DNA of 64,000 nucleotides from Limnohabitans sp. (GTDB taxonomy: Bacteria; Pseudomonadota; Gammaproteobacteria; Burkholderiales; Burkholderiaceae_C), in contig VERE01000007.1 of NCBI GenBank assembly GCA_018882835.1, forward strand, positions 1 through 64,000. Reading direction: 5' to 3'. Under the pieces are notes generated by a model. It saw nothing but the letters and a program-made list of their open reading frames with translations, searched no databases and was not told the DNA's origin. The position numbers and the translations under genes were made by a program. Positions 1,697 through 20,312 of this stretch are shown here, piece after piece (the first letter of the stretch is position 1; every line of letters starts with the position of its first letter).

Positions 1697-3028
1697 ATGC
1701 CGCAATCTCTGACCGAACAACTCAGCCGTGAACAACAAATCGCTGCCCTCGAAAAAGACTGGGCTACCAACCCCCGTTGGAAAGGCGTGAAGCGTGGCTA
1801 CAGCGCCGCCGATGTCGTGCGTTTGCGTGGCAGCTTGCAAATTGAAAACACCCTGGCCCGTCGCGGCGCAGAAAAACTGTGGCGCCTGATCAATGGCGAA
1901 GCCAAAAAAGGCTATGTGAATTCCTTCGGCGCCATCTCTGCGGGCCAAGCCATGCAGCAAGCCAAGGCCGGCCTCGAAGCCGTGTACTTGTCGGGTTGGC
2001 AAGTGGCCGCTGATGGCAACACCTCGGAAACCATGTACCCCGACCAGTCGCTGTACGCCTACGACTCGGTGCCCACCATGGTGCGTCGCATCAATAACAC
2101 CTTCAAGCGTGCTGACGAAATCCAGTGGGGTCGTGGCATCGAGCCGGGCAACAAAGACTTCATCGATTACTTCCTGCCCATCGTGGCCGATGCCGAAGCC
2201 GGTTTCGGCGGCGTGCTCAATGCCTTTGAGCTGATGAAGAACATGATTTCTGCCGGCGCTGCTGGCGTGCACTTCGAAGACCAGCTGGCTGCCGTGAAAA
2301 AGTGCGGCCACATGGGCGGCAAAGTGCTGGTCCCCACCCACGAAGCCTGCGAGAAGCTGATTGCAGCGCGTTTCGCTGCCGACGTCATGGGCGTGCCCAC
2401 CATTGTGCTGGCCCGTACCGATGCTGAAGCAGCCAACCTGCTGACCTCTGACCACGATGCCAACGACAAGCCTTTCCTGACAGGCGAGCGCACCCCCGAG
2501 GGCTTCTACCGCGTCAAGAACGGCCTGGAGCAAGCCATCAGCCGCGGCGTTGCCTACGCTGCCTACGCCGACCTGGTGTGGTGTGAAACCGGCACCCCCG
2601 ACCTCGGCTTTGCACGCGAGTTTGCGCAAGCAGTGCACGCCAAGCACCCTGGCAAGCTGCTGTCCTACAACTGCTCGCCCTCCTTCAACTGGAAGAAAAA
2701 CCTGGACGACAAGACCATCGCTGCGTTCCAGGACGAGTTGTCCGCACTGGGTTACAAGTACCAATTCATCACCTTGGCCGGCATCCACGTCAACTGGTAC
2801 AACACCTTCCAGTTCGCCCACGCCTATGCCCGCGGCGAAGGCATGAAGCACTACGTCAACATGGTGCAAGAGCCCGAGTTCGCAGCCCGTGAAAAGGGTT
2901 ACACCTTCGTGTCGCACCAGCAAGAAGTGGGTGCAGGTTACTTCGACGACGTGACCACCGTGATCCAGGGCGGCCAGTCCAGCGTGAAAGCGCTGACCGG
3001 GTCGACCGAAGAAGAGCAGTTCCACTGA
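1697..3028 (+). CDS. aceA: Isocitrate lyase
   Basis: A 443-residue isocitrate lyase, the first enzyme of the glyoxylate shunt, cleaving isocitrate to succinate and glyoxylate in the cytoplasm. The catalytic-loop motif KKCGHMGGK is present with the active-site cysteine at about residue 203. The Mg-binding stretch [10 protein letters not shown] and the conserved tail GSTEEEQF are also visible. Length matches the family. The ATG at 1697 is chosen over an in-frame ATG 69 bases upstream because CAGGAG lies 8 bases before it and the N-terminus then matches known enzymes. The last 223 coding bases are repeated 4.45 kb downstream as a truncated copy. Two palindromic sites upstream suggest transcriptional control. 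Confidence 0.96.
2800..3022 (+). repeat. 223-bp direct repeat, left copy (3' end of aceA)
   Basis: Bases 2800-3022 recur in the same orientation at 7251-7473 with three mismatches only: 2881/7332 (C/G, Phe to Leu), 2932/7383 (T/C, silent) and 3001/7452 (G/T, silent). The match starts and stops abruptly on both sides. The left copy is the intact end of aceA; the right copy has no start and no stop of its own. The pair brackets about 4.2 kb of accessory genes. Confidence 0.95.
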
Positions 3029-3061
3029 GCTGACCGATCACAGTCAACACCTGGCGCCCTT

Positions 3062-3085
3062 GGGTGGGTGCTGGGTGGGTGAGGG
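3062..3085 (+). other. G-quadruplex-type motif in the aceA 3' region
   Basis: Five runs of three G (3062-3064, 3066-3068, 3073-3075, 3077-3079, 3083-3085) are separated by loops of 1, 4, 1 and 3 bases, meeting the usual G3N1-7 definition of an intramolecular quadruplex. It lies 34 bases after the aceA stop, just before the terminator hairpin and close to the left edge of the repeat-bracketed block. Folding is not demonstrated. Confidence 0.55.
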
Positions 3086-3097
3086 CCATCCGGGGTG

Positions 3098-3118
3098 AAA
3101 GCCTTGGGTGGCTTTTTT
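3098..3118 (+). terminator. Rho-independent terminator of aceA
   Basis: AAAGCC (3098-3103) can pair with GGCTTT (3110-3115) across a six-base loop, and the 3' arm runs into a string of six T. It is the first such structure after the aceA stop and lies before the next gene's GTG start. Confidence 0.75.
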
Positions 3119-3163
3119 GCTTTTCACCTTGTTGTTATCAGAGATTCGTAGAATCATTGTGCT

Positions 3164-3823
3164 GTGAAAAACTATTCAATCATTCTTGGTGCTGTCGCAC
3201 TAGGGGGCTTGTTGGGCTACGGTCTTGGCCGTTATCGCGCTGAGTTGTTTCAGAAGCGAGTGACGACATTCCAAAATCGTGGCGAGTCTCTGGTTTCTGA
3301 GACTATTGCAAACAATTTCGGCCCACCTGACTATCACTTGTTCAACCATCTGACCTTGAAGTTGAACGAGAGCACGACTCAGATTGACCACGTATTGGTC
3401 TCACGCTTTGGCGTTTTTGTTATCGAGACCAAAGACTACAAAGGTTGGATTTTTGCTAACCCTGAGCAGGCTCAATGGACGCAAGTCCTCTTTAACGGAA
3501 AGCGCAGATTTCAAAACCCCATCGTTCAAAACAAACTTCACGTCCAAGCGGTGTCAAGTCTTCTGGATTTTTTGCCAACAGAGGCGATCCAGTCCGTGGT
3601 TGTGTTTGCTGGTGAAGCCGAATTCAAGAGCGATGTTCCGCGAGGGGTGTTCACCTTGTCCGAAATGATTAACTATCTGCGTGGTTGTCAGGGCGAGGTG
3701 ATGTCAATCAATCGAATGCAATTTTGTGTGGGCCGTTTAGAGGCTGAGCGGCTTGCGATCAGTGGCGAGACTGATGTGGCGCATGTGGCTCATTTAAAGC
3801 AGAGGCGTAGGCTTCGCGAGTGA
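3164..3823 (+). CDS. NERD-domain (nuclease-related) membrane-anchored protein
   Basis: A 219-residue protein with one N-terminal membrane segment (residues about 5-22) followed by a NERD domain (about 38-150). The PD-(D/E)XK-like core is visible as GE at 40-41, D75-H76 in TQIDHVLV, and E88-x-K90 in VIETKDYKG, so the putative nuclease residues are intact. NERD domains are found alone or fused to helicases and kinases, and roles in DNA processing are suspected; the job of lone membrane-anchored forms is not established. The start is GTG with no strong ribosome site. It is the first gene in the block bracketed by the aceA repeat, with a more AT-rich, less biased codon use than aceA, consistent with transfer. 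Confidence 0.75.
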   Translation: MKNYSIILGAVALGGLLGYGLGRYRAELFQKRVTTFQNRGESLVSETIANNFGPPDYHLFNHLTLKLNESTTQIDHVLVSRFGVFVIETKDYKGWIFANPEQAQWTQVLFNGKRRFQNPIVQNKLHVQAVSSLLDFLPTEAIQSVVVFAGEAEFKSDVPRGVFTLSEMINYLRGCQGEVMSINRMQFCVGRLEAERLAISGETDVAHVAHLKQRRRLRE

Positions 3824-4505
3824 ATTTGAAGATGAAGAGAGAGTTGCAACTCAGCGTGAAGTGACCCATTCGATCGATCGTAGCAAGCATTCCAAAGTTT
3901 TATCTACACCTTGTATCGAATCCTTTTTCATCTAATCATTCTAGGCAACAGAGTTGCGAGGGCAGTGATGGGTTTTTTGTGAATTTTTTGTCTTGATGTC
4001 CAAACTCTTCCACATCATTTGCAATCAGGTAAAAAATGGCAGACAAGCAGGCATCTTGCAAGTGCGCTTCGAGCGACATAATGAATTGCATAACATTGAT
4101 CGTTCTGTGACTAATCTTTAGGTAACCTCTTTCAATTCCAGGATGGAGTCATGTCCAACGAGTCTAGTCGTCCCGTCTGCTTTTTTTACACGATCAGTTT
4201 CTGGGCATGTGTGGTGGTGAAGACCTTGTGATGATCTCGTGCAAGCTTATCGCTGCACCCTCGAAAAATGTACATCCAACGGCTGCTATCGGGAATGACC
4301 ATGGCTGACCCCTTCTGGCCGGAGCCAGCCGCGATAAGCCAGCTGTATCTGACTCGCGAGTAGACCCGCAAGGGTAATATGAATACGACAACCACTTACC
4401 AAAGTTACGTCGCCCATTCTGAGCGTTCGATGATCAAAAATGCCTGCACTTGGGCACCCAAGCTGCAACATGGATTAGTCGTGTGACTGAGTTACTTGTG
4501 GCACC
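3824..4505. other. 682-base stretch with no recognisable gene
   Basis: Frames on both strands are short and interrupted. Minus-strand frames of 61-69 codons in 4186-4471 overlap one another and have no recognisable motif. The composition is visibly more AT-rich than the flanking core genes. No transposase motif or terminal inverted repeat was found. It may be degraded coding sequence or the upstream region of the GntR gene; nothing more can be supported. Confidence 0.5.
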
Positions 4506-5201
4506 ATGTTGCGCATGACTCGTCAATCCCGCCCTCTTTCTAAATCGGCACCACCCGGCCAAGCACCAGCCTCACTCAATGAAGAAGCCTATCGGCGCAT
4601 CGAAGAGATGATCGTGACTCTTGAGCTTGCGCCAGGTAGCGTGGTGTCGGAGGCCATGCTCAGCGATCGCATTGGTATTGGTCATACCCCGATTCGAGAG
4701 GCCTTGCAACGCCTCGCCCGAGAACATCTGGTTCAGATTCTGCCGCGACGTGGTGTTGTGGTGACCGCCATAGATGTTGGCCATCAACTGCAGATTCTGG
4801 AGACGCGACGAGAGCTCGACCGTCTGATTGCTCGTTCTGCAGCCAGCCGCGCCAACGCGTCAGAACGCGATGCGATGACAGCCATTGCGCAGAGCATGGA
4901 GACAGCAGTGAAGTCCGGCGACCTAGTGGCTTTCCTGCAATGGGACAACGAAATGAACCGGCAAGCTGCACTCAGCGCTCGCAACACGGTGGCGGCTTCA
5001 GCCGTGGCGGCCCTCCATTCGGCTTCGCGACGTTTCTGGTTTTACCACCATCAGGGCCAAGCCAACGCGACACTGCGGCTGCACGTAGCCTTGGCGCGTG
5101 CGATGGCTTCTGGCAAACCTGAGAGGGCTGCAGAGGCCAGTGATCGCCTGATTGACGATCTTTTTGACTTCGCTACCAGGACCCTGATCACCCGCACTTG
5201 A
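4506..5201 (+). CDS. GntR-family transcriptional regulator (FadR/FCD type)
   Basis: A 231-residue regulator with an N-terminal winged helix-turn-helix (about residues 25-90; typical core TPIREALQRLAREHLV) and an all-helical effector domain of the FCD type from about residue 95 (histidine in LRLHVALARAM). These proteins bind small carboxylic acids or sugars acids and usually repress neighbouring catabolic genes. It lies 51 bases before two dioxygenase genes in the same direction, with a palindrome of the GntR type between them, so those genes are its likely targets. The ATG at 4506 is used; an in-frame ATG at 4515 is possible. The ligand is unknown. Confidence 0.85.
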   Translation: MLRMTRQSRPLSKSAPPGQAPASLNEEAYRRIEEMIVTLELAPGSVVSEAMLSDRIGIGHTPIREALQRLAREHLVQILPRRGVVVTAIDVGHQLQILETRRELDRLIARSAASRANASERDAMTAIAQSMETAVKSGDLVAFLQWDNEMNRQAALSARNTVAASAVAALHSASRRFWFYHHQGQANATLRLHVALARAMASGKPERAAEASDRLIDDLFDFATRTLITRT

Positions 5202-5204
5202 CAT

Positions 5205-5226
5205 CTGGTATGCCAGTCACATACCA
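5205..5226. promoter_or_regulatory. Candidate GntR operator before the dioxygenase genes
   Basis: Two overlapping inverted repeats occur in the GntR-dioxygenase gap: CTGG-TATG-CCAG at 5205-5216, and TGGTATG at 5206-5212 facing CATACCA at 5220-5226 across seven bases. The TGGTAT...ACCA form resembles FadR-type operators. The position, 27 bases before the dioxygenase start, would suit repression. Assignment to the adjacent regulator is inference. Confidence 0.5.
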
Positions 5227-5252
5227 TGAACTCCTGTTCAAGGAGTTTGCCT

Positions 5253-6068
5253 GTGCGCCTCACCCATCAGCAAGTCGAAGCCTATAACCGTGATGGATTC
5301 CTCATCCTTGCGGATCTCTTTTCAGCTGCTGAGGTAGCTGCCATGCGAGCCGAGCTCGGACGGGTTCAAACGATAGATACCGATCATTTGGTCCGTGAGA
5401 ACGGTAGCCACATCGCCAAGACCATTTACCGCGTTCACGAAGCAGACGGCCCAACGGCTTCTCCAGTTTTTCATGCCGTCTCGCGTTCTCCGCGGATGCT
5501 AGAGCCCGCTCAGGACCTGCTCTGCGATCAGCGGCTCTACATCCATCACACCAAATGCAACCTGAAGACCGCAATTGACGGTTCGGTGTGGGCATGGCAC
5601 CAAGACTACGGCACCTGGAAGCGCGATGGTATGCCTGAACCACTTCCAACAACGGCCTTGATCATGCTTGACGAGCCAACTGAAATGAATGGCTGCCTCT
5701 ACTTCATTCCGGGCAGTCACAAGGAGGGCAGCTTGGAGCCTGAGTTCAACGACGCCACAGGCTACAAGTTTTATGTCACGCCAAAAGAAAAGCTGCTCGA
5801 AGTCATGGCGCGAAGCCCTGAACCGGTTCCGATAGTTGGCAAGCCTGGCACAGTGGTTTTTTTCGACTGCAACATCCTGCATGCATCGGGACACAACTTA
5901 TCCCGACACAACCGCTGGGCGATCTATGTGGTCTATAACCCGGTCGAGAACCGGTGTCGCGATGTTCCTAACCCTCGCCCTGATTACGTGCGATCTGTTA
6001 ACACGAATCCACTCATGGTCGGAAGCGACAACATCCTTGCATCCACCAACATAGTGCAGGAGGCTTGA
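5253..6068 (+). CDS. Phytanoyl-CoA dioxygenase (PhyH) family Fe(II)/2-oxoglutarate oxygenase, EctD-like
   Basis: A 271-residue non-haem iron oxygenase. The iron-binding triad is H116-x-D118 in WAWHQDYG and H210 in NILHASGHN; the 2-oxoglutarate-binding arginine lies in LSRHNRW. The stretch WHQDYGTWKRDGMPEP followed by NGCLYFIPGSHKEG resembles ectoine hydroxylase (EctD), so a small zwitterionic or acidic substrate is plausible. The GTG at 5253 is preferred to an in-frame ATG at 5226: AAGGAG lies 7 bases before the GTG and the protein then opens with the family pattern RLTHQQVEAYNRDGFLIL. No ectABC genes are nearby, so true ectoine hydroxylation is not supported. Its stop overlaps the start of the second oxygenase by one base. 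Confidence 0.85.
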   Translation: MRLTHQQVEAYNRDGFLILADLFSAAEVAAMRAELGRVQTIDTDHLVRENGSHIAKTIYRVHEADGPTASPVFHAVSRSPRMLEPAQDLLCDQRLYIHHTKCNLKTAIDGSVWAWHQDYGTWKRDGMPEPLPTTALIMLDEPTEMNGCLYFIPGSHKEGSLEPEFNDATGYKFYVTPKEKLLEVMARSPEPVPIVGKPGTVVFFDCNILHASGHNLSRHNRWAIYVVYNPVENRCRDVPNPRPDYVRSVNTNPLMVGSDNILASTNIVQEA

Positions 6069-6934
6069 TGAAGATTCGCCATCAACGTGTCCTGAGCGAT
6101 GAGCAGATCAGGGACTATCACGAAACCGGTTACCTCAATATTCGTCAAATACTGGATCCCGCACTGCTGGCGAGGCTCATCGCCACCACAGAGCGACTCT
6201 ACGACGAGGGCCGTTCACTCAAGCAAAAGACCAAACATTACGATCTGGAACCTGAGCACACTGTCCAGAATCCGCGCATTCGGCGAATTTCCAGCCCTAC
6301 CGAACTGGATTCGGTGTACGTTGAAACCGCTTTCGATTCGATTCTGGGTGACATCGCTGCAGATCTGATCGGCGGGGCAGTCAAGTTTTACCACTCTAAG
6401 ATCAATTTCAAGCTGCCCCACGGCGGCGCTGAGATCGGCTGGCATCAGGACTGGCCGGTGTTTCCGCATACCAACACCAATCTCGTGGCTCTGAGCGTGC
6501 CATTGAACGCATCACGCTCAATCAATGGCTGTCTCCAGACGATTCCCGGCAGCCACAAGCGTGGGTCACGCAGCCATTGGGAAAACGGCATCTACAAACT
6601 CAATTGCAACCACACGATGACCCCCGAAGACTACACGAATGTGGTCGATAACGAGTTGGACGTCGGAGACGTGGTGGCACACCATGGCCTTGCGGTACAC
6701 GGCTCCAGTCAAAACCGATCGGATACCTTGCGCACGACCTACATCATCCAGTACGCTGCCGCGGACGCATTCGCCTACACCGCACCAGTTGTAGACAGCA
6801 CTCATCGCAACCAGATGGTCAGGGGCGAGCCTGCGACTCACGCACGCGTGGAAGCTGGTGTGATCGAGTTACCGCCAGATTTTTCAGCCGGATACTCAGG
6901 CATTTATGCACTGCAGACAGCGGGTAAGAACTAG
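6068..6934 (+). CDS. Second PhyH-family Fe(II)/2-oxoglutarate oxygenase
   Basis: A 288-residue PhyH-family oxygenase with the facial triad H126-x-D128 (IGWHQDWPVF) and H211 (LAVHGSSQN), and an arginine (about 222) for 2-oxoglutarate. The conserved NGCLQTIPGSHKRG strand is present. It shares the fold but little direct sequence with the preceding oxygenase, so this is not a recent tandem duplication. The start is set by the TGATG junction with the upstream gene and by AGGAGG six bases before, implying translational coupling. Two paired oxygenases suggest consecutive oxidations of one substrate or a heteromeric enzyme; both ideas are inference and the substrate is not recognisable. Confidence 0.82.
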   Translation: MKIRHQRVLSDEQIRDYHETGYLNIRQILDPALLARLIATTERLYDEGRSLKQKTKHYDLEPEHTVQNPRIRRISSPTELDSVYVETAFDSILGDIAADLIGGAVKFYHSKINFKLPHGGAEIGWHQDWPVFPHTNTNLVALSVPLNASRSINGCLQTIPGSHKRGSRSHWENGIYKLNCNHTMTPEDYTNVVDNELDVGDVVAHHGLAVHGSSQNRSDTLRTTYIIQYAAADAFAYTAPVVDSTHRNQMVRGEPATHARVEAGVIELPPDFSAGYSGIYALQTAGKN

Positions 6935-7250
6935 CGATTCTTCCGCAAGGCTGTCAGTGTCAATGAGGTGCTCGACTGCTACCAGGTCCGCACCGCGAAG
7001 GGCAGGTAATGGCCGACAGCTGAAGTTCCACTTGTGACGATCGATGACCGCAATCGCTGCAAAGCAGTCCATGCCAATCTCAGAACTCCAACCAGCCAGC
7101 CGAAACATCGGAATCCAGTGATAATTTCAAGAACCTACCGCGCAGAGTCCTGCCTGCAGTTGGGAGGTCGGTGGGTTGCCAAAGCTACAGCCCCTTCGAA
7201 GGCTACTATCCACATGATTTCAATAGTTTTTTCCTGAAACTTTGCAGATT
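6935..7250. other. 316-base stretch without a supported gene
   Basis: This separates the second oxygenase from the truncated aceA copy. A minus-strand frame of 70 codons (6896-7108) overlaps the oxygenase end, lacks a recognised domain and may be a decayed remnant. No hairpin followed by a T-run was found after the oxygenase stop. The match to aceA begins abruptly at 7251. Confidence 0.5.
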
Positions 7251-7473
7251 CAACACCTTCCAGTTCGCCCACGCCTATGCCCGCGGCGAAGGCATGAAGC
7301 ACTACGTCAACATGGTGCAAGAGCCCGAGTTGGCAGCCCGTGAAAAGGGTTACACCTTCGTGTCGCACCAGCAAGAAGTGGGCGCAGGTTACTTCGACGA
7401 CGTGACCACCGTGATCCAGGGCGGCCAGTCCAGCGTGAAAGCGCTGACCGGTTCGACCGAAGAAGAGCAGTTC
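7251..7473 (+). pseudogene. Truncated second copy of the aceA 3' end
   Basis: Encodes the last 74 or so residues of isocitrate lyase, from [10 protein letters not shown] to GSTEEEQF, almost identical to the functional gene, but without the first five-sixths of the protein. The reading frame is still open and runs past the lost stop to 7548 into sequence antisense to the FAD oxidase end. With three differences in 223 bases the copy is recent, gene-converted or under some constraint. It marks the right boundary of the accessory block. The original His codon and stop of aceA are replaced at 7474. Confidence 0.93.
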
Positions 7474-7489
7474 GCAGGCCGTCAGAGTC

Positions 7490-8902
7490 TTACACCGACA
7501 CCACCTTGCCGGGATTCAAGAGATTGCCAGGGTCCAGTGCTTTCTTGAGGGTTTGCATCAGCGCGATTTCTTCGGCACTGCGCGAATGGCCCAGCCATTT
7601 CTTCTTCTGGGTGCCGATGCCATGCTCCGCGGAGATCGAGCCACCGCAGGTCTTGACCAGACCATAGATGACGTCATCCATCGCTGCCTTGGGCTGTTCG
7701 ATCAGGCTGGCCCCATCCAGCCAGGCCACCAGGTGCAGGTTGCCGTCACCCACGTGGCCGTAGTAAATGCTTTGCACGCCCCCCGCCGCCAGCAGACCGG
7801 CCTTGCACTGGCGTACAAAGTCGGCCATCTGCCCAATGGGCATGGCGACGTCGTAGGAAACATGCGGTCCGATCACCTGAAAAAATTCGGCGCAGGCGTC
7901 ACGCAAGGCCCAAAAGCCCTGCACATCAGCCAGGCTCTGGGCCACCGCCGCATCTGACAGCAAGCCTTGCGCCATGACTGTTTCGAGCCAGGCCTGAAAG
8001 CGGGGAGGATCGGTCTTTTCGTCCGTGCCTTGTGCTTCGATCAAAACATATTGGGCATGGCCCTTTCCCACGGCAGCTTTCACTTTGGCGCGTTCTGTCA
8101 CCACATGCCAATAGTCTGGCCACATGACCTCAAAGGCCGAGAGCGTCGGCCCCAGCCCAGTGCGTGCCGCCTTGAGCAAACCCACCAAGGCCTCGAAATC
8201 GCTTACGGCGCACAGCGCGGCCATGGTGCATTGGGGCTTGGGGTGCAGGCGCAAGACCACCCGTGTGATCACCCCCAGCGTGCCCTCGCTGCCAATGAAC
8301 AACTGCTTGAGGTCGTAACCGGCATTGTTCTTGAGCATCTTGTTCAGACTGGTGAGAACCGTGCCGTCGGGCAACACCACCTCGATGCCCAGCACCAGCT
8401 CGCGGGCCATGCCATAGCGGATAACCCGGTTGCCACCCGCATTGGTCGAGAGATTGCCGCCAATCGCACACGATCCGCGCGCGCCCAGATCCAGAGAAAA
8501 AAACAGGCCCGCTTGATCGGCTTCGCGTTGCACCACCTCCAGCGGCGTCCCCGCCCAGACCGTCATGGTGCTGCCTGCTGTATCGATTTCTTCCACGCCG
8601 ACCATGCGTTCCATGGACAAGGCGACCCAGCCATCTTCGGGGCGTGCGCCACCGCAAAGCCCCGTGAGTCCGCCTTGCGGCACCACCTTCAAACCGGCCT
8701 GGGCACAGGCTTTGAGCGCTGCACTGACTTCGCCGGCATCCTTGGGTCGGATCACAGCGATCGGGTTCGCCGGTGCCTGGCTGCTCCAGTCATTGCGATT
8801 GCGTTCAGGGACGGCGTCGCCAATCAATACCGTCTGCGAACCCAGTTGTTCTTGCAAGGCCAGCAAGCCCGCAGGCAGGCCCATTGTGTGTGTCTTGGTC
8901 AT
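7490..8902 (-). CDS. FAD-binding oxidase/dehydrogenase (D-2-hydroxyglutarate / D-lactate dehydrogenase family)
   Basis: A 470-residue flavoprotein of the vanillyl-alcohol-oxidase superfamily. The N-terminal PCMH FAD domain (about residues 40-220) shows PQGGLTGLCGGA and NLSTNAGGNRVIRYGM. The C-terminal domain has YYGHVGDGNLHL and SAEHGIGTQKKKWL, the paired histidine motifs seen in D-lactate, glycolate (GlcD) and D-2-hydroxyglutarate dehydrogenases. It probably oxidises a D-2-hydroxyacid and passes electrons to a quinone or flavoprotein acceptor. The start MTKTHTMG is used because a 96-base upstream extension has no family similarity; an ATG at 8884 is an alternative. The gene sits immediately right of the truncated aceA copy, on the opposite strand. 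Confidence 0.87.
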   Translation of the reverse strand: MTKTHTMGLPAGLLALQEQLGSQTVLIGDAVPERNRNDWSSQAPANPIAVIRPKDAGEVSAALKACAQAGLKVVPQGGLTGLCGGARPEDGWVALSMERMVGVEEIDTAGSTMTVWAGTPLEVVQREADQAGLFFSLDLGARGSCAIGGNLSTNAGGNRVIRYGMARELVLGIEVVLPDGTVLTSLNKMLKNNAGYDLKQLFIGSEGTLGVITRVVLRLHPKPQCTMAALCAVSDFEALVGLLKAARTGLGPTLSAFEVMWPDYWHVVTERAKVKAAVGKGHAQYVLIEAQGTDEKTDPPRFQAWLETVMAQGLLSDAAVAQSLADVQGFWALRDACAEFFQVIGPHVSYDVAMPIGQMADFVRQCKAGLLAAGGVQSIYYGHVGDGNLHLVAWLDGASLIEQPKAAMDDVIYGLVKTCGGSISAEHGIGTQKKKWLGHSRSAEEIALMQTLKKALDPGNLLNPGKVVSV

Positions 8903-9001
8903 GCGATGATTATTTGCAGGTGGGTCTGGCACGGCATCATGAAATACCCTACGCCTATGTGTCGCTCCGTGCCGCGTGCTCTTGGACGGATTGCGCATTC
9001 G

Positions 9002-10162
9002 TCACTGAGACTCGAGCCAGAGCTTTGCCATGCGGTGGATCTCTCTGGCGGAGGTCGAGTTGCTGAACACAATGATGTATTTGTCGTTCGTCGTACTCCA
9101 CACGATGGCCTGTCCGCCGTAGCCAAGCGCCGAGTAGCTGTTGGGTATGTCCTGGTTATCGGTCCAGGTGAAATAGCCGTAGCCGTTGTACATCTTTGCA
9201 AAGCGTCTGTCGCTTTGGATCTGCGTGCTCGTAGCCTCTCGGATGAAGTCTCCATAGCACCCCGTTGATTTGCGGCTTGCCTGAATAAACACCGCCAGCC
9301 GTGCCCAGTCCTTGAGCGTCATTCGCGTATTGCCATCGGATTGGGCGTAGGCAAAGCGATCGGTGCCCTGGATTCGACGGTCACTGGTCTGCACCTTCGG
9401 GAAGAAATACTCGGTTTGCCATTCTCTGAATTTTTTTCCGTGCATGCCGTAGGCCGCCGTCACCATCATTCCCACCAGCAAAGGGTCCTGAGACTTGTAA
9501 TCAAAGCGCTCACCAGGCTTGGTCCAGAAACGCGCCACCCCCAGCCTGCCTTTGAGAAAATCCATGAAACTCTTGCGGCCCGACTGCATGTCAGCCGTCT
9601 CCTCAGCGGTCAGGCTCTGTGAGTCGTCAAAGGCACGGGTGGTCCCCGATGCCATCTTCAGGTTGTCACGCAGGGTCGTTTTGCCGATGTCCGTTCCTGC
9701 CAATTCAGGAAGGACGTCACTGGCCAGGGTGTCCAGTGCAATCTTGCCATCACACACGGCAATTCCGGCGCTGAAAGCCGTCACCGATTTGTCTATGCTG
9801 GCGCTTAACAGCAACCCATCCTCGCGAGCGGGCGCCTTCAGACGCATATCAACAATCTCGCTCCCGTCACCCAGCAGCAGTACCTTGCTCTCCGACGCCG
9901 CGAAAAGCTCGCTGATCCGGTCGACGGCATTGCGCTCGCCCCTTGTGGGCTCCCGGGATCCCAGGGGGCGGCCACCGGAAGTGGCAGGCACGCGATAGTG
10001 GAAGGTCTGTCCCGATCCGAGCAGCCACTCGTCAGGAAGGTAGAACTGACCATTCTTCTGCGGCATATAAGTCTGGGCATGGCCATGCTGCGCCAGGGTG
10101 ACTATCAGGCTGGCAGCGATGCAGTTGAATACAGTCAAGCGCAAAGAGATTTTGTAATTCAC
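9002..10162 (-). CDS. Secreted serine hydrolase of the beta-lactamase/PBP-like (SxxK) family
   Basis: A 386-residue protein with a signal peptide (hydrophobic stretch about 9-24, cleavage near AQHGHAQ). The nucleophile motif is S122-I-D-K125, a later Y-K-S (in FDYKSQDPLL) fits the Y-x-N/S position, and GYGGQAIV near the C-terminus replaces the KTG strand. This pattern matches class C beta-lactamase-related hydrolases such as esterases, D-aminopeptidases and 6-aminohexanoate-dimer hydrolase rather than resistance enzymes. It is predicted to be periplasmic. It stands alone, oriented away from thrS. The true substrate cannot be told. Confidence 0.8.
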   Translation of the reverse strand: MNYKISLRLTVFNCIAASLIVTLAQHGHAQTYMPQKNGQFYLPDEWLLGSGQTFHYRVPATSGGRPLGSREPTRGERNAVDRISELFAASESKVLLLGDGSEIVDMRLKAPAREDGLLLSASIDKSVTAFSAGIAVCDGKIALDTLASDVLPELAGTDIGKTTLRDNLKMASGTTRAFDDSQSLTAEETADMQSGRKSFMDFLKGRLGVARFWTKPGERFDYKSQDPLLVGMMVTAAYGMHGKKFREWQTEYFFPKVQTSDRRIQGTDRFAYAQSDGNTRMTLKDWARLAVFIQASRKSTGCYGDFIREATSTQIQSDRRFAKMYNGYGYFTWTDNQDIPNSYSALGYGGQAIVWSTTNDKYIIVFSNSTSAREIHRMAKLWLESQ

Positions 10163-10397: not shown

Positions 10398-10434
10398 GGC
10401 CTGCAGCACGCGCCTGCCTGACATACTTTCTTCC

Positions 10435-10463
10435 AAGCGCGGTCACCACCGCGCTTTTTCTTT
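10435..10463 (+). terminator. Terminator/attenuator hairpin directly upstream of thrS
   Basis: AAGCGCGGT (10435-10443) pairs perfectly with ACCGCGCTT (10448-10456) across the loop CACC and is followed by TTTTTCTTT. It lies 17-24 bases before the thrS start, too close to be the end of a separate gene, so it most likely acts as a transcription attenuator for thrS and the genes behind it. Confidence 0.75.
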
Positions 10464-10479
10464 GTTACGACACACAATC

Positions 10480-12387
10480 ATGCTTCACATCACACTTCCT
10501 GACGGTTCTCAACGCGAATTTCCTGGCCCGGTCACCGTGGCGGAAGTGGCCGCCTCCATTGGCACGGGTTTGGCCAAGGCGGCGTTGGCGGGCAAGGTGG
10601 ATGGCCGTCTGGTGGACACCAGCTACCGTATGGAAAAGGATTCGGCGCTGGCCATTGTGACGGCCAAGGATGCCGATGGCCTGGAAGTCATCCGGCACTC
10701 CACCGCACATTTGCTGGCCTATGCCGTCAAGGAGCTTTTCCCCGAGGCACAAGTCACCATTGGTCCGGTCATCGAGCATGGCTTCTATTACGATTTCTCT
10801 TATTCACGCCCGTTCACGCCGGAAGACCTCGAGGCCATTGAAAAGCGCATGACCGCGCTGGCCTCCAAAGATGAGCCGGTGTTGCGCAAGGTTCTGCCGC
10901 GTGATGAAGCCATTCAGTATTTCAAAGGCCTGGGCGAGCACTACAAGGCAGAAATCATTGGCAGCATCCCCGCAGGCGAAGATGTTTCGCTGTACAGCGA
11001 GGGCAGCTTCACCGACCTGTGCCGTGGCCCCCACGTGCCCAGCACCGGCAAGCTCAAGCATTTCAAGCTGATGAAGGTGGCCGGCGCCTATTGGCGCGGC
11101 GATCACCGCAATGAAATGTTGCAGCGTGTCTACGGCACGGCATGGGCCAGCAAGGAAGACTTGCAGCAATACCTGACCATGCTGGAAGAGGCCGAGAAGC
11201 GCGACCACCGCAAGCTTGGCCGTGAATTGGATTTGTTCCACATTGACGACCACGCCCCCGGCCTGGTGTTTTGGCATCCCAAGGGGTGGACCGTCTGGCA
11301 GGGCGTCGAGCAGTACATGCGCCAGGTTTATCGCGACAACGACTACCTGGAAGTGAAGGGCCCGCAAATTCTGGACAAAACCTTGTGGGAAAAAACCGGC
11401 CACTGGGACAAGTACCGCGAGAACATGTTCACCACCGAGAGTGAAAAGCGCGACTACGCCCTCAAGCCCATGAATTGCCCGGGCCACATTCTGATTTACA
11501 AGCAGGGCATCAAGAGCTACCGCGACCTGCCGCTGCGCTTTGGCGAATTTGGCCAGTGCCATCGCAACGAGCCCTCGGGTGGTTTGCACGGCATCATGCG
11601 CGTGCGCGGCTTCACCCAGGACGATGGCCATATCTTTTGCACCGAAGACCAGATTCAAGCCGAGGTGAAGTCTTTCACCACCTTGCTGCGCAAGGTCTAT
11701 CAAGACTTTGGCTTCACCGAAATTTTGTACAAACTGTCTACCCGGCCGGAAAAGCGCATCGGCACCGATGAAAGCTGGGATCGTGCAGAAAGCGCGTTGG
11801 CCGAAGGCCTGCGTGCCTCGGGCTGCGAGTTTGAATACCTGCCGGGCGAGGGCGCCTTCTACGGCCCGAAGATCGAGTACACCCTGAAAGACGCTCTGGG
11901 CCGCCAATGGCAATGCGGCACGATCCAGGTCGATCCCAACCTGCCTGAGCGCCTGGACGCCGAATTTGTGGCAGAAGATGGCTCGCGTCAGCGACCCGTG
12001 ATGCTGCACCGCGCTATCGTGGGAAGCCTCGAGCGTTTCATCGGCATCCTGATCGAGCAGCACGCCGGGGCCTTGCCGACCTGGCTGGCACCGGTGCAGG
12101 TGGCGGTGCTGAACATCACCGATTCCCAGGCCGAATATGCCCAAAGTGTCGCGAAAAAGCTGAAAAATCAAGGGCTTAGGGTCGATTTGGACCTGCGCAA
12201 CGAGAAAATTACGTATAAAATACGCGAGCATTCGATGCAGAAGCTGCCTTACATCCTTGTCGTTGGCGAGAAAGAGAAGGCAGCGGGTGCCGTCGCAGTG
12301 CGCGCCCGAGGTAACCAAGACCTCGGTGCGATGTCTCTAGAAGCATTCGCTGAAAAGATTGCTTCCGACATCGCCCACAAGAGCTGA
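10480..12387 (+). CDS. thrS: Threonine-tRNA ligase
   Basis: A 635-residue threonyl-tRNA synthetase charging tRNA-Thr in the cytoplasm. Domains in order: TGS (about 1-62), the SAD editing domain with [11 protein letters not shown] (about 63-225), the class II catalytic core and the C-terminal anticodon-binding domain (about 535-635). Zinc and ATP site motifs MNCPGH (331-336), [12 protein letters not shown] and [13 protein letters not shown] are present. The ATG at 10480 is chosen over a TTG 18 bases upstream because [10 protein letters not shown] is the usual TGS beginning. No clear Shine-Dalgarno precedes it; instead a terminator hairpin and a Thr-containing leader frame do. It begins the conserved run infC-rpmI-rplT-pheST. 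Confidence 0.97.
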
Positions 12388-14897: not shown

Positions 14898-17324
14898 ATG
14901 CAATTCCCTGAATCCTGGTTGCGCGAATTCTGCAACCCCCCACTTTCAACCCAGCAACTGGCCGACACGCTCACCATGGCGGGGCTGGAAGTTGAAGAAC
15001 TTCAGCCTGTGGCACCGCCCTTTTCCAAAGTGGTGGTGGGCGAGATCAAAGAGGCTGTGCAACACCCCAATGCCGATCGCCTGCGCGTGTGCCAGGTTGA
15101 CGTGGGACAAGGCAGCTTGTTGAACATCGTGTGTGGCGCGCCCAATGCGCGTGCCGGTATCAAAATTCCCTGTGCCTTGGTGGGCGCCGAGTTGCCACCG
15201 GGTGACGATGGCAAGCCTTTTCAGATCAAGCTGGGCAAGCTGCGCGGCGTTGAAAGTCAGGGCATGCTGTGCTCCGCCCGTGAGCTCAAGCTCAGCGAGG
15301 ACCATGGCGGCCTGCTGGAGTTGAGTTCAGAGGCTCCACTGGGGCAAGACATTCGCGCGCATTTGAATCTGGATGACACGCTGTTCACCCTGAAGCTCAC
15401 ACCCAATCTGGCCCATTGCCTGAGCGTTTATGGCATTGCCCGCGAGTTGTCTGCCCTGACCGGCACGCCGCTCACAACGCCTGACTTCCCAGCCGTGCCG
15501 TCCTCGCTGACAGACCGCCTGGCCGTCAACATCAGTGCACCTGATTTGTGTGGCCGTTTCAGTGGCCGCGTGGTCAAAGGCGTCAACCCGAAAGCAGCCA
15601 CGCCATCCTGGATGGTGGACCGCCTGGCCCGTTGCGGCCAGCGAAGTGTCAGCCCGTTGGTGGATATTTCGAACTATGTGATGTTCGAATACGGACGCCC
15701 ATCGCATATTTTCGACCTGGACAAAATCCACGGTGGCCTGGAGGTGCGTTGGGGGCGCGCGGGCGAGCAAATCAAGCTGCTCAACGGCAACACGGTGACC
15801 GTGGACGACAAAGTTGGCGTCATTGCGGACGAGGTGCAAGTCGAGTCGTTGGCCGGCATCATGGGGGGTGATGCCACCGCTGTCTCTGATGACACGCGCA
15901 ACATCTACATCGAGGCCGCGTTCTGGTGGCCCACCTCGGTAGCTGGCCGCTCACGCCGTTACAACTTTTCGACCGATGCCGGGCACCGTTTCGAGCGCGG
16001 TGTCGACCCGCAACAGACAGTGGCGCACATCGAGCGCATCACCCAGTTGGTGATCGATATTTGCGGCACGGCCGACACAGCCTGCGGGCCGATCGACGAC
16101 CAGCAAGTGAAAATGCCCGAACGCGCGCCGGTGACGCTGCGCGTGGCCCGAGCAGTCAAGGTCATTGGCATGGCGTTGACTCAAGAGCGCATGGCCCAAG
16201 CCCTGCGTGGCCTGGGTTTGCCTGTGACCGAAGGAGAGGGCACCCTGACAGTGAAGCCTCCCTCGTTCCGCTTTGACTTGCAGATCGAAGAAGACCTGAT
16301 TGAAGAAATTGCGCGCATGGTGGGCTATGAACAATTACCCATCACGCCACCGAACGCACCGATCACCGCGCGTTTACGCGCAGAGGCCAGCCGCAGCCCC
16401 TATGCGGTGCGGCGCCAATTGGCGGGCCTGGGCTACCAGGAAACCATCAACTACAGCTTTGTGGAAGAGCGCTGGGAGCATGAACTCGCTGGCAATACCG
16501 ACCCGATTCGACTGCTCAACCCCATTGCCAGCCAGATGAGCGTCATGCGCTCCTCGCTGCTGGGCAATTTGCTGCAAGTCGTGAAATTCAACACCGACCG
16601 CAAAGCCACCCGTGTGCGGGTGTTCGAGGTCGGTCGTGTGTTCCGCAAAGACGCGAGCGTCAAGGGCAGCGACGTAACGGTGGAAGGTTTCGACCAACCC
16701 ATGCGCATTGCGGGCATGGCCTATGGCCCAGCGCAACCCCTGCAGTGGGGGGTGAAAGAGCAGGCCGTGGATTTTTATGACATCAAAGCCGACGTGCAGG
16801 CCTTGTTGGCACCCGCTGTGCCGAGCTTTGAGCCGGCGGACCATCCCAGCATGCATCCTGGGCGCTGTGCGCGTGTGTTGTTGGGCGAGCGCGTTATCGG
16901 GCATGTCGGAGAGTTGCATCCCCGCTGGCGCCAAGCCTGGGATTTGCCTCAGGCCCCGGTGATGTTCGAGCTCGAGCTCGATGCGGTGTTGCAGCGCACC
17001 GTCCCAAGTTTCCAAAATGTTTCTCGTTTCCAGGCCGTCGAGCGCGACATTGCGGTCATTGTCAACGAATCGGTGACGCATGCAGCGCTCATGCAGGCCA
17101 TTCACGAAGCGCCCACGCAAGGGCTGCTGCGCGATGCCTTGCTGTTTGACGTTTACCGACCCAAACAGGCCGCAGCCGGCCTGTCTGAAGGCGAGAAAAG
17201 CCTGGCCGTTCGCCTGACACTCAATAGCGATGAGGCCACGCTGACCGATGCGCAAATCGAATCGGCAATGCAGGCCATTGTTGAGCAATTGGCGCGAGAC
17301 GTGGGCGCACGTTTGCGCGGTTAA
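14898..17324 (+). CDS. pheT: Phenylalanine-tRNA ligase beta subunit
   Basis: An 808-residue beta subunit with the domains expected: an N-terminal tRNA-binding OB fold (about 40-150, VVVGEIKEAVQHPNADRL), the B3/B4 editing domain (about 210-390), B5, the inactive class II-like core, and the C-terminal ferredoxin-like anticodon-binding domain (about 710-808, FQAVERDIAVIV). It edits mischarged Tyr-tRNA and completes the heterotetramer with PheS. The start MQFPESWLREF is typical. The gene is followed after 10 bases by ihfA, as in many proteobacteria. Confidence 0.97.
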   Translation: MQFPESWLREFCNPPLSTQQLADTLTMAGLEVEELQPVAPPFSKVVVGEIKEAVQHPNADRLRVCQVDVGQGSLLNIVCGAPNARAGIKIPCALVGAELPPGDDGKPFQIKLGKLRGVESQGMLCSARELKLSEDHGGLLELSSEAPLGQDIRAHLNLDDTLFTLKLTPNLAHCLSVYGIARELSALTGTPLTTPDFPAVPSSLTDRLAVNISAPDLCGRFSGRVVKGVNPKAATPSWMVDRLARCGQRSVSPLVDISNYVMFEYGRPSHIFDLDKIHGGLEVRWGRAGEQIKLLNGNTVTVDDKVGVIADEVQVESLAGIMGGDATAVSDDTRNIYIEAAFWWPTSVAGRSRRYNFSTDAGHRFERGVDPQQTVAHIERITQLVIDICGTADTACGPIDDQQVKMPERAPVTLRVARAVKVIGMALTQERMAQALRGLGLPVTEGEGTLTVKPPSFRFDLQIEEDLIEEIARMVGYEQLPITPPNAPITARLRAEASRSPYAVRRQLAGLGYQETINYSFVEERWEHELAGNTDPIRLLNPIASQMSVMRSSLLGNLLQVVKFNTDRKATRVRVFEVGRVFRKDASVKGSDVTVEGFDQPMRIAGMAYGPAQPLQWGVKEQAVDFYDIKADVQALLAPAVPSFEPADHPSMHPGRCARVLLGERVIGHVGELHPRWRQAWDLPQAPVMFELELDAVLQRTVPSFQNVSRFQAVERDIAVIVNESVTHAALMQAIHEAPTQGLLRDALLFDVYRPKQAAAGLSEGEKSLAVRLTLNSDEATLTDAQIESAMQAIVEQLARDVGARLRG

Positions 17325-18395: not shown

Positions 18396-20312
18396 ATGTC
18401 CACTGCTCCGTTTCGCGTGCTGTCCGTCATCCCTCCGATGACGCAATTGAACACACCTTACCCGTCAACAGCTTATTTGACGGGCTTTTTACGCTCGCGC
18501 GGCGTCGATGCAGTTCAGGAAGACCTGGCGCTGGCGCTTGTCTTGCGCTTGCTCTCCAAAGAAGGCCTGCATCGGATTGCTGACGCAGTGAAGGCGTCTC
18601 GGGCGGATGTGTCATCGCCCAGCGTTCAAGCCTTCATGGCACAAGAGGCGCGCTATCTGCAAACCATTGAGCCGGTCATTGCCTTCCTTCAGGGTCGTGA
18701 CGCCACCTTGGCGCATCGCATTGTGGGCAGGCAGTTTTTGCCTGAAGGCCCGCGCTTTGCCGCACTTGAAGTGTATGTGGATGAAGAGGGCGGCGATCCG
18801 TTGGGTTGGGCTTTTGGCGCGCTGGGGCAAGCAGACCGCGCCAAGCACCTGGCAACGCTGTATCTGAATGACCTGGCCGATGTCTTGCGCGATGCCGTTG
18901 ACGAGCGCTTCGAATTCGTGCGCTATGCCGAGTCTTTGGCAGGCAGTCAACCAAGCTTTGAGCCTTTGGCCGAGGCGTTGGCGGCGCCTCCCACGCTGGT
19001 GGATGAGACATTGCAAACCTTGGCCTTGTCGGCTTTGCAACGACACACGCCGGACCTGGTGGTGTTGTCGGTGCCGTTTCCCGGGACCGTTTATGCAGCG
19101 CTTCGCATTGCCCAAACCATCAAGCGCCATGCGCCTCAGACACGCATTGTGTTGGGCGGCGGGTTTGTCAACACCGAATTGAGGTCTTTGGGCGAACCCC
19201 GTCTTTTCGATTTTGTGGACTATGTGACCCTTGACGCTGGAGAACGGCCCTTGCTGGCCCTGATCGAGCACCTCAAAGGACAACGCGCCATGCAACGCCT
19301 GGTCCGCACATTTGTGCGCGAGGCTGAATCCGGCGAGGTGCGCTACATCAACATGATGGAGGCAGACATCGCTTTTGCCGAGGTGGGCACGCCAACCTGG
19401 GACGGCTTGCCCTTGTCAAAATACTTGTCGCTGCTGGACATGCTCAATCCGATGCACCGCCTGTGGAGCGACGGTCGCTGGAACAAGCTGACGGTGGCAC
19501 ATGGCTGCTATTGGAAAAAATGCAGCTTCTGTGATGTGTCGCTGGATTACATTTCGCGCTATGAAGGCGCCTCGGCTTCCGTGCTGGTTGACCGTATCGA
19601 TGCGATCGTTGCAGAAACCGGGCAAACGGGCTTTCACTTTGTCGATGAGGCCGCCCCTCCCAAAGCGCTGAAAGCGCTGGCCAACGAACTGATTGCGCGC
19701 CAGACGGGTATTTCCTGGTGGGGCAATATTCGGTTTGAAAAAACTTTTACACCTGAGCTGTGCCAGCGGTTGGCAGACAGTGGCTGCATCGCGGTGTCAG
19801 GCGGCTTGGAGGTTGCATCGGACCGGTTGCTGGCGCTGATGAAGAAGGGCGTGTCAGTGGACCAGGTGGCTTGCGTGACCCGCGCATTCTCAGAGGCAGG
19901 CGTACTGGTGCATGCGTATCTGATGTACGGTTTTCCGACGCAAACGGTGCAAGACACGGTCGACGCTTTGGAGTTGGTGCGACAGTTGTTTGTGAACGGT
20001 TGCATTCAAAGTGGCTTTTTTCATCGCTTTGCATGCACTGTCCACTCCCCGGTCGGCTTGCACCCTGAAGACTATGGCGTGACGCTGAAGCCCTTGCCAC
20101 CTGGGCGCTTCGCCAAAAACGACATCGCGTTTGTGGACCCCACCGGGGTTGACCACGATGCCTTGGGCGTGGGCTTGAAGAAAGCGATTTACAACTACAT
20201 GCACGGCATCGGTCTTGAAGAAGACGTTCGTGCCTGGTTCCCTTTTGCCGTGCCCAAAACCACCATTCGCCGAAACCGGATTGCCCGCGCCTTGGCGCAG
20301 GGAGTCAATTGA
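18396..20312 (+). CDS. B12-binding-type radical SAM protein with CX4CX2C cluster motif
   Basis: A 638-residue protein whose N-terminal part (about 1-290) fits a cobalamin-binding Rossmann domain (PDLVVLSVPFPGTVYAALRIA; RIVLGGGFVNTELR) and whose central part (about 360-560) is a radical SAM domain. The cluster cysteines are C371, C376 and C379 in GCYWKKCSFCD, spaced CX4CX2C rather than the common CX3CX2C. Later motifs (GFHFVDEAAPP, SGGLEVASDRLLALMKKG) match the SAM barrel. Relatives include methyltransferases and thiolation enzymes, but the product here is unknown. The ATG at 18396 is preferred to an in-frame TTG 30 bases upstream, which overlaps the terminator. Its stop overlaps the convergent gene by 8 bases. 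Confidence 0.82.
   Translation: MSTAPFRVLSVIPPMTQLNTPYPSTAYLTGFLRSRGVDAVQEDLALALVLRLLSKEGLHRIADAVKASRADVSSPSVQAFMAQEARYLQTIEPVIAFLQGRDATLAHRIVGRQFLPEGPRFAALEVYVDEEGGDPLGWAFGALGQADRAKHLATLYLNDLADVLRDAVDERFEFVRYAESLAGSQPSFEPLAEALAAPPTLVDETLQTLALSALQRHTPDLVVLSVPFPGTVYAALRIAQTIKRHAPQTRIVLGGGFVNTELRSLGEPRLFDFVDYVTLDAGERPLLALIEHLKGQRAMQRLVRTFVREAESGEVRYINMMEADIAFAEVGTPTWDGLPLSKYLSLLDMLNPMHRLWSDGRWNKLTVAHGCYWKKCSFCDVSLDYISRYEGASASVLVDRIDAIVAETGQTGFHFVDEAAPPKALKALANELIARQTGISWWGNIRFEKTFTPELCQRLADSGCIAVSGGLEVASDRLLALMKKGVSVDQVACVTRAFSEAGVLVHAYLMYGFPTQTVQDTVDALELVRQLFVNGCIQSGFFHRFACTVHSPVGLHPEDYGVTLKPLPPGRFAKNDIAFVDPTGVDHDALGVGLKKAIYNYMHGIGLEEDVRAWFPFAVPKTTIRRNRIARALAQGVN

Follow-up and report, generated by a model that had tools for sequence, protein, structure and literature searches.

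What calls for an explanation at this locus is the double occurrence of one end of a central-carbon gene. In a stretch of 64,000 nucleotides from Limnohabitans sp. (assembly GCA_018882835.1, contig VERE01000007.1, positions 1 to 64,000 of the forward strand), the whole of which is called the window here, the 3' end of aceA, the isocitrate lyase gene, is found a second time downstream of the gene itself, and DNA of another kind lies between the two copies. How did this arrangement come about? The comparisons described below point, with high confidence, to one answer: that the block from 2800 to 7473 is a decayed integrative element, brought into aceA through site-specific recombination and now a remnant of the type known from e14 in icd. 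An earlier note on this DNA, made from its letters, had offered two origins, namely the single-crossover integration of a circular DNA carrying part of aceA or an element that rebuilds the end of its target gene, and it is the second of these that has gained support.

The target gene occupies 1697-3028 on the plus strand and encodes a full-length isocitrate lyase of 443 residues (NF011645, 765.7 bits against a cut-off of 562). The left copy of its 3' end, the attL side, spans 2800-3022 on the plus strand, starting at the third base of codon 368, and the last 75 codons of aceA fall within it. The right, partial copy, the attR side, spans 7251-7473 on the same strand, has neither start nor stop, and ends before the last codon. 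The two copies are identical at 220 of 223 bases (98.7%), and they differ at 2881 (C at the left, G at the right), 2932 (T, C) and 3001 (G, T), the first difference producing F395L in the right copy and the other two being silent. In all these respects (coordinates, identity, consequences of the differences, and the lack of start and stop at the right) the description given in the earlier note was exact. At the silent sites, the right copy has the base that is most frequent in relatives (13 and 12 of 28 sequences, respectively), and its leucine codon at residue 395 is seen in none of the 28 aligned relatives' sequences. A search of the source genome revealed no third copy of this gene end. The block thus has an intact target gene at its left edge and the 3' end of that gene as a direct repeat at both edges, two features of elements that restore the gene end that they interrupt.

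The key information on the origin of the block came from other genomes that carry a second aceA end. When 84 genomes of the genus were searched with the aceA 3' end, 55 gave a match and four gave two, these being the source genome (G000), G634, G643 and G664; the last was discarded as a further double, for its single aceA is split over two overlapping contig ends. Of 399 genomes of the family, six of which belong to the genus, 379 gave a match when the query was the final 75 residues of AceA, and six gave two, namely the source genome, G085, G169, G357, G617 and G401. G634 and G643 each have, in this order, aceA, other DNA (with a repeat-to-repeat distance of 3.6 and 2.6 kb, respectively), a second aceA end and thrS. 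The single match of G638 is a partial copy that comes after an intact integrase gene and before thrS. In the other genera, the copies are 15.1 kb (G085), 18.3 kb (G169), 7.7 kb (G357) and 3.2 kb (G617) apart. Besides the source genome there are, then, seven carriers, of which three belong to its genus and four to other genera of its family, the eight genomes spanning five genera. Six of the seven have a full aceA upstream, on the same strand. The second copy begins at the same base, at codon 368/369, in all eight. A side-by-side alignment showed that the right copies open with CAACAC (7251 in the window) and that the sequence before this point is unlike; in the seven loci with both copies, the identity extends further to the left by four bases in G169, three in G617, one in G085 and none in the others. 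The other end of the repeat varies: it lies at or near the stop codon in G085, G357 and G617, about 90 bp past it in G634, G643 and G169, and before the last codon in the window. The length of the DNA between the copies (2.6-18.3 kb) and its cargo also differ from locus to locus, which argues for repeated insertion. A conserved gene order with both aceA copies in distant genera, which the earlier note had set against an insertion, was not what these genomes held: inter-copy length and cargo vary, and all the carriers belong to one family.

A second line of evidence was provided by the integrases. Intact tyrosine integrases of 390-394 residues, 62-79% identical to one another, are encoded within the element in four of the seven other carriers (G638, G085, G169 and G357), and that of G638 combines a PF00589 catalytic domain (1.1e-28) with a PF13356 arm-binding domain (3.2e-14); in addition, G634 retains a 132-residue integrase piece (PF00589, 2e-12). 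The four intact proteins were placed in a tree of 16 integrases, together with eight others of the genus, three found on viral contigs and one encoded by a Pseudomonas plasmid. Those from the aceA islands grouped into a single clade (support 100/100), a degree of clustering reached in none of 500 shuffles of the labels; two long branches outside this clade are uncertain. The distance from the end of the integrase gene to the partial copy is about 240 bp in G638 and G357, and likewise for the broken integrase of G617, an offset that corresponds to a point near 7010 in the window.

Could the duplication have arisen independently of any integrase, by a single crossover or an illegitimate duplication through homology between a circle or fragment and the end of aceA? 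Such an origin would fit a repeat as long and as similar (98.7%) as this one, as well as a block in which no integrase remains. However, random breaks would scatter, and a crossover of this kind would neither pick the same base repeatedly, in eight genomes of five genera, nor be accompanied by intact integrases of a single clade, so this origin is very unlikely. The element that rebuilds the gene end accounts for both the shared entry base in eight genomes and the intact integrases in four. An artefact, that is, a chimera of the assembly or the library, was also considered. The source genome is a draft (97.97% complete, 5.15% contamination, 107 contigs), and a short right copy with three differences is what a fragment of another strain would look like. 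Nonetheless, near-complete genomes assembled into 2-3 contigs share this architecture (the two-contig G634 and G643, and G085), and the junction in the window falls at the shared base and retains the arm motif described below, making an artefact highly improbable.

For integration at aceA, the following course is proposed, of which we infer the recombination step itself. A tyrosine integrase would recombine the circular form of the element, in which the element end would be joined to CAACACCTTCCAG, with a fixed site at aceA codon 368/369. The element would bring its own version of the last 75 aceA codons and, in some relatives, also a stretch past the stop; aceA would stay complete at the left and a second gene end would be left at the right edge, the right copy being presumably the original chromosomal end. 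In the window, the 3' untranslated region of aceA (3029-3115, plus strand), with a stem that looks by eye like a terminator, could also be element-borne, judging from the repeats that run past the stop codon in G634, G643 and G169 (318-326 bp). The integrase of the element in the window would have been lost afterwards by deletion. With no integrase in the block, the element would be immobile unless one was supplied from elsewhere, and the copy in the window is probably an immobile remnant rather than a working element.

Additional information was obtained from the DNA just before the right copy. At 7160-7176 on the plus strand the window carries the 17-mer TTGGGAGGTCGGTGGGT, which occurs identically in G634 at the same distance from the junction and may represent an arm-type site for the integrase. 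The local alignment score between the arms of the window and G634 was 34, compared with a maximum of 30 in 300 shuffles, the identical offset not being counted, and that between the arms of G634 and G643 was 140, compared with a shuffle maximum of 24. Across eight right arms of 300 bp, 11 short arm motifs were seen where mononucleotide shuffles predicted 0.8, mostly near -80 and -165, and four of the eight arms have a motif 78 to 82 bp before the junction.

Several observations weigh against the proposal of an integrase-driven entry or weaken it in parts. The window contains no trace of an integrase when searched by tblastn with the four intact ones (best E 0.12), in agreement with the earlier note, which had seen none. 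The integrase lies 3.5 kb from the partial copy in G169 and 6 kb in G085; the contig of G638 starts inside the element, and the left half of the locus, on the side of the full aceA, is absent there; and the two matches of G401 are weak (best E 3.1e-20) and stand outside the eight loci compared. As for the arms, that of G643 matches the 17-mer at only 14 of 17 positions and scores 19 against that of the window, inside the shuffle range (maximum 28), the right arm of G638 has none of the short motifs, and the patterns used for the motif count were picked after seeing the arms. Which copy is the native one could not be decided for most genomes by comparing identities (rows of G169, whose anchoring was off by about 1 base, were excluded); G634 alone hints at an imported left end, which is 99.6% identical to G413, compared with 95.1% for the part upstream. 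Lastly, excision of the element in its carriers is a presumed step.

In G169, a region of roughly 200 bp at the end of the integrase recurs at 81% identity just before the partial copy (the direct repeat lies at 15774-15968 and 19025-19233 in locus L375), and this repetition suggests that two elements have accumulated there. It was also observed that the Pseudomonas plasmid pA62H2 (L382) encodes, near a VapE gene, an integrase 59% identical to the clade of the aceA islands.

Elements of this kind are already known. In E. coli, e14 enters icd, whose 3' end it replaces with one of its own, and a 163-bp fragment of icd is left behind (PMC6379469); identity blocks of up to about 250 bp, with the replacement sequence in attP, are described for such sites (PMC10111431). 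The likeness to the block described here lies in the entry well inside a central-carbon gene and in the replacement 3' end borne by the element; in contrast, the target here is aceA, the integrase clade, hosts and cargo are different, and the copy in the window has no integrase. Phage 21 is a further user of icd. The islands associated with dusA combine one integrase family, one main protein-coding target, diverse cargo and a replaced gene end (PMC4482086). The aceA islands share all four traits, but are inserted in aceA and at its 3' end, whereas in the dusA islands it is the 5' end of dusA that is used. Phage satellites of the PICI and P4-like type offer a third comparison: in the HE-PICIs an arm motif is reported 81 +/- 2 bp from the att centre (PMC10111431). 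The spacing of the arm motif here (-78 to -82 bp) resembles this, and in three relatives VapE (G085) or DUF3631 (G169 and G357) is located shortly before the integrase; the sequence of the motif is different, and neither VapE nor DUF3631 appears among the Pfam matches of the block in the window. The VapE and DUF3631 domains are both linked to phage satellites.

No report of aceA as an integration site was found in the literature searched, where a mention in supplementary tables of mapped islands is possible. The finding adds aceA, together with a distinct integrase clade, to the protein-coding genes that serve as landing sites for islands, and it yields a simple rule for finding them, a second aceA end starting at codon 368/369, which also catches remnants that have lost the integrase. 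Candidate phage-defence genes, SIR2-HerA among them, occur in the islands of relatives, so the site looks promising as a place to search for defence islands. The G169 island includes SIR2-HerA defence genes (PADLOC 4.7e-125 and 1.2e-241) besides DUF3631, that of G085 has VapE and the candidate defence gene PDC-S11, and that of G357 has DUF3631; the candidate phage-defence genes of the two other genera were seen in loci L374 (PDC-S11) and L375 (SIR2-HerA). The exchange also suggests that the C-terminal segment of a central enzyme can pass between genomes by means of an integrase. A wider proposal, which we put forward as a tentative one, is that a lineage of satellite-like, defence-carrying islands might use the aceA 3' end as its dedicated landing site in this betaproteobacterial family, and that each landing might swap the last 75 residues of AceA, a key enzyme of the glyoxylate shunt, for the version of the element, re-alleling and possibly tuning the enzyme. 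IMG/VR yielded three contigs with aceA and no copy of this element among them; in one of them, L381 (1-2704), a distant aceA (62% at the amino acid level) is followed after about 265 bp by a distant tyrosine integrase (22-25%) and phage-like open reading frames, which may represent a prophage that entered an aceA 3' end independently.

The notion that core genes surround the block, held in the earlier note, had to be revised for the right flank. The usual order in the genus is aceA, then thrS and infC. In a first set of 20 stretches, 19 of which are aceA loci of relatives, thrS follows aceA directly in 13, all of the same genus, an uninterrupted arrangement that the earlier note had proposed as a check on insertion; the remaining six, of which four belong to other families, have no thrS within the stretch taken. 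Where thrS follows directly, it is separated from aceA by about 100-515 bp in 12 loci and by 1.7 kb in the thirteenth, that of G010. In a second set of 20 stretches, from 19 genomes, thrS lies downstream in 15, two of these being the loci of G634 and G643 with their insert and the rest having gaps of less than 100 bp to 3 kb. The native right neighbour in the window, thrS with its leader and a G+C-rich stem, is found at 10433-12387 on the plus strand (a similar stem precedes thrS in 11 of 13 intergenic regions of relatives and is absent in G009 and G032), leaving a gap of 7.4 kb. Given the adjacency of aceA and thrS in relatives, this gap implies that the two genes to the right of the repeat, an FAD-linked oxidase (7490-8908, minus strand) and a serine hydrolase of the beta-lactamase fold family (9002-10162, minus strand; PF00144, 5.8e-15), were inserted too, and the foreign stretch amounts to some 7 kb rather than 4.2 kb. 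The best-scoring match of the oxidase in 60 relatives is 44% identical, and homologues at 70-73% are present in six genomes of other genera of the same family; the serine hydrolase has no match in the relatives' aceA stretches. The two genes (7490-10162) are probably a separate insertion, outside the element and later than it, which would have cut the right aceA copy and probably removed its end.

The truncated end bears on two further matters. The earlier note had held that looping out the block would leave a functional aceA, which is wrong in detail, since aceA would then receive the right-hand end; in this end His443 and the stop are missing and the frame continues for another 24 residues (right open reading frame 7171-7548), and the looping out would thus attach a 24-residue tail in place of His443 instead of yielding a normal aceA. 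The abrupt end of the right copy could also be read, along with the several origins of cargo and right flank, as the product of two successive changes, first a tandem duplication that began at 2800 and then a deletion, the cargo having arrived separately; this history deserves hardly any credence, as it leaves the shared start base, the arm motif and the integrases elsewhere unexplained.

What does the element carry? Pfam recognised NERD, GntR/FCD and two PhyH domains in the four long open reading frames of the block and nothing else, in accordance with the earlier note, and no plasmid replication or transfer genes were among these matches. The first cargo gene (3164-3823, plus strand) encodes a NERD-domain protein (PF08378, 2.2e-27) with a weak resemblance to parts of defence proteins in PADLOC (PglW, 3.3e-05). 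It is followed by a stretch with no recognisable gene (3824-4487); among 81 genomes, 3824-4500 had no convincing relative (best E outside the window 1.4e-3). A mobile operon of three genes comes next, all on the plus strand: a GntR/FCD regulator (4506-5201; PF00392, PF07729), PhyH-family oxygenase 1 (5226-6068; PF05721, 3e-34), whose closest solved chain in a PDB search is the leucine hydroxylase 5nch (1e-41), and PhyH-family oxygenase 2 (6068-6934; PF05721, 2.7e-30). The stretch between oxygenase 2 and the right-arm motif (6935-7159) shows no similarity to integrases, and in the same 81 genomes 6935-7250 had no convincing relative, the best match being 4.0e-5 over 59 bp (76%, G635). With the 7.4-kb insert as query, plasmids and phages yielded matches at the level of genes only (FAD oxidase, PhyH/GntR), and in the phage set isocitrate lyase was matched in four records.

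The decay that the earlier note saw in the block does not apply to the operon, which is conserved: its DNA is 80-84% identical in 10 of the 11 closest copies found and 76% over a part in L134. The regulator is 81-85% identical at the amino acid level across the eleven loci, mostly of Limnohabitans, and oxygenase 2 is 89-91% identical in ten of them and broken in L134; in G589, a genome of the source's family, oxygenase 2 is 90% identical, as in the Limnohabitans loci, from which the source organism would be a member of the Comamonadaceae in the broad sense. Seven copies (L126-L132, six from Limnohabitans and one from a bin titled Akkermansia muciniphila, which is probably misnamed) are about 99% identical to one another and lie at about 7000-9800, or at 1400-4300 in L130. 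These copies have mostly different surroundings with sharp edges, a right flank being common to L128 and L130, and it follows that the operon moves by other routes too. An integron or IS-type origin of the block was rejected, as the short boundary motifs of the operon loci are not found at the aceA repeats of the window, where the sole motif of this kind is GCAGCGATTGC, on the minus strand near 7060. Rfam matched only tRNA and tmRNA in the operon loci. A tmRNA gene, a tRNA-Leu gene or an integrase-like open reading frame lies near the operon in L129 (6267-6655), L127 (6469-6553) and L131 (5499-6845), the integrase-like frame being of the tyrosine type by eye only and showing no similarity to the aceA integrases at a cut-off of E 1e-10. 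In five of the seven loci with copies about 99% identical, the left edge of the operon lies at CGACCCAAAGCGGTC.

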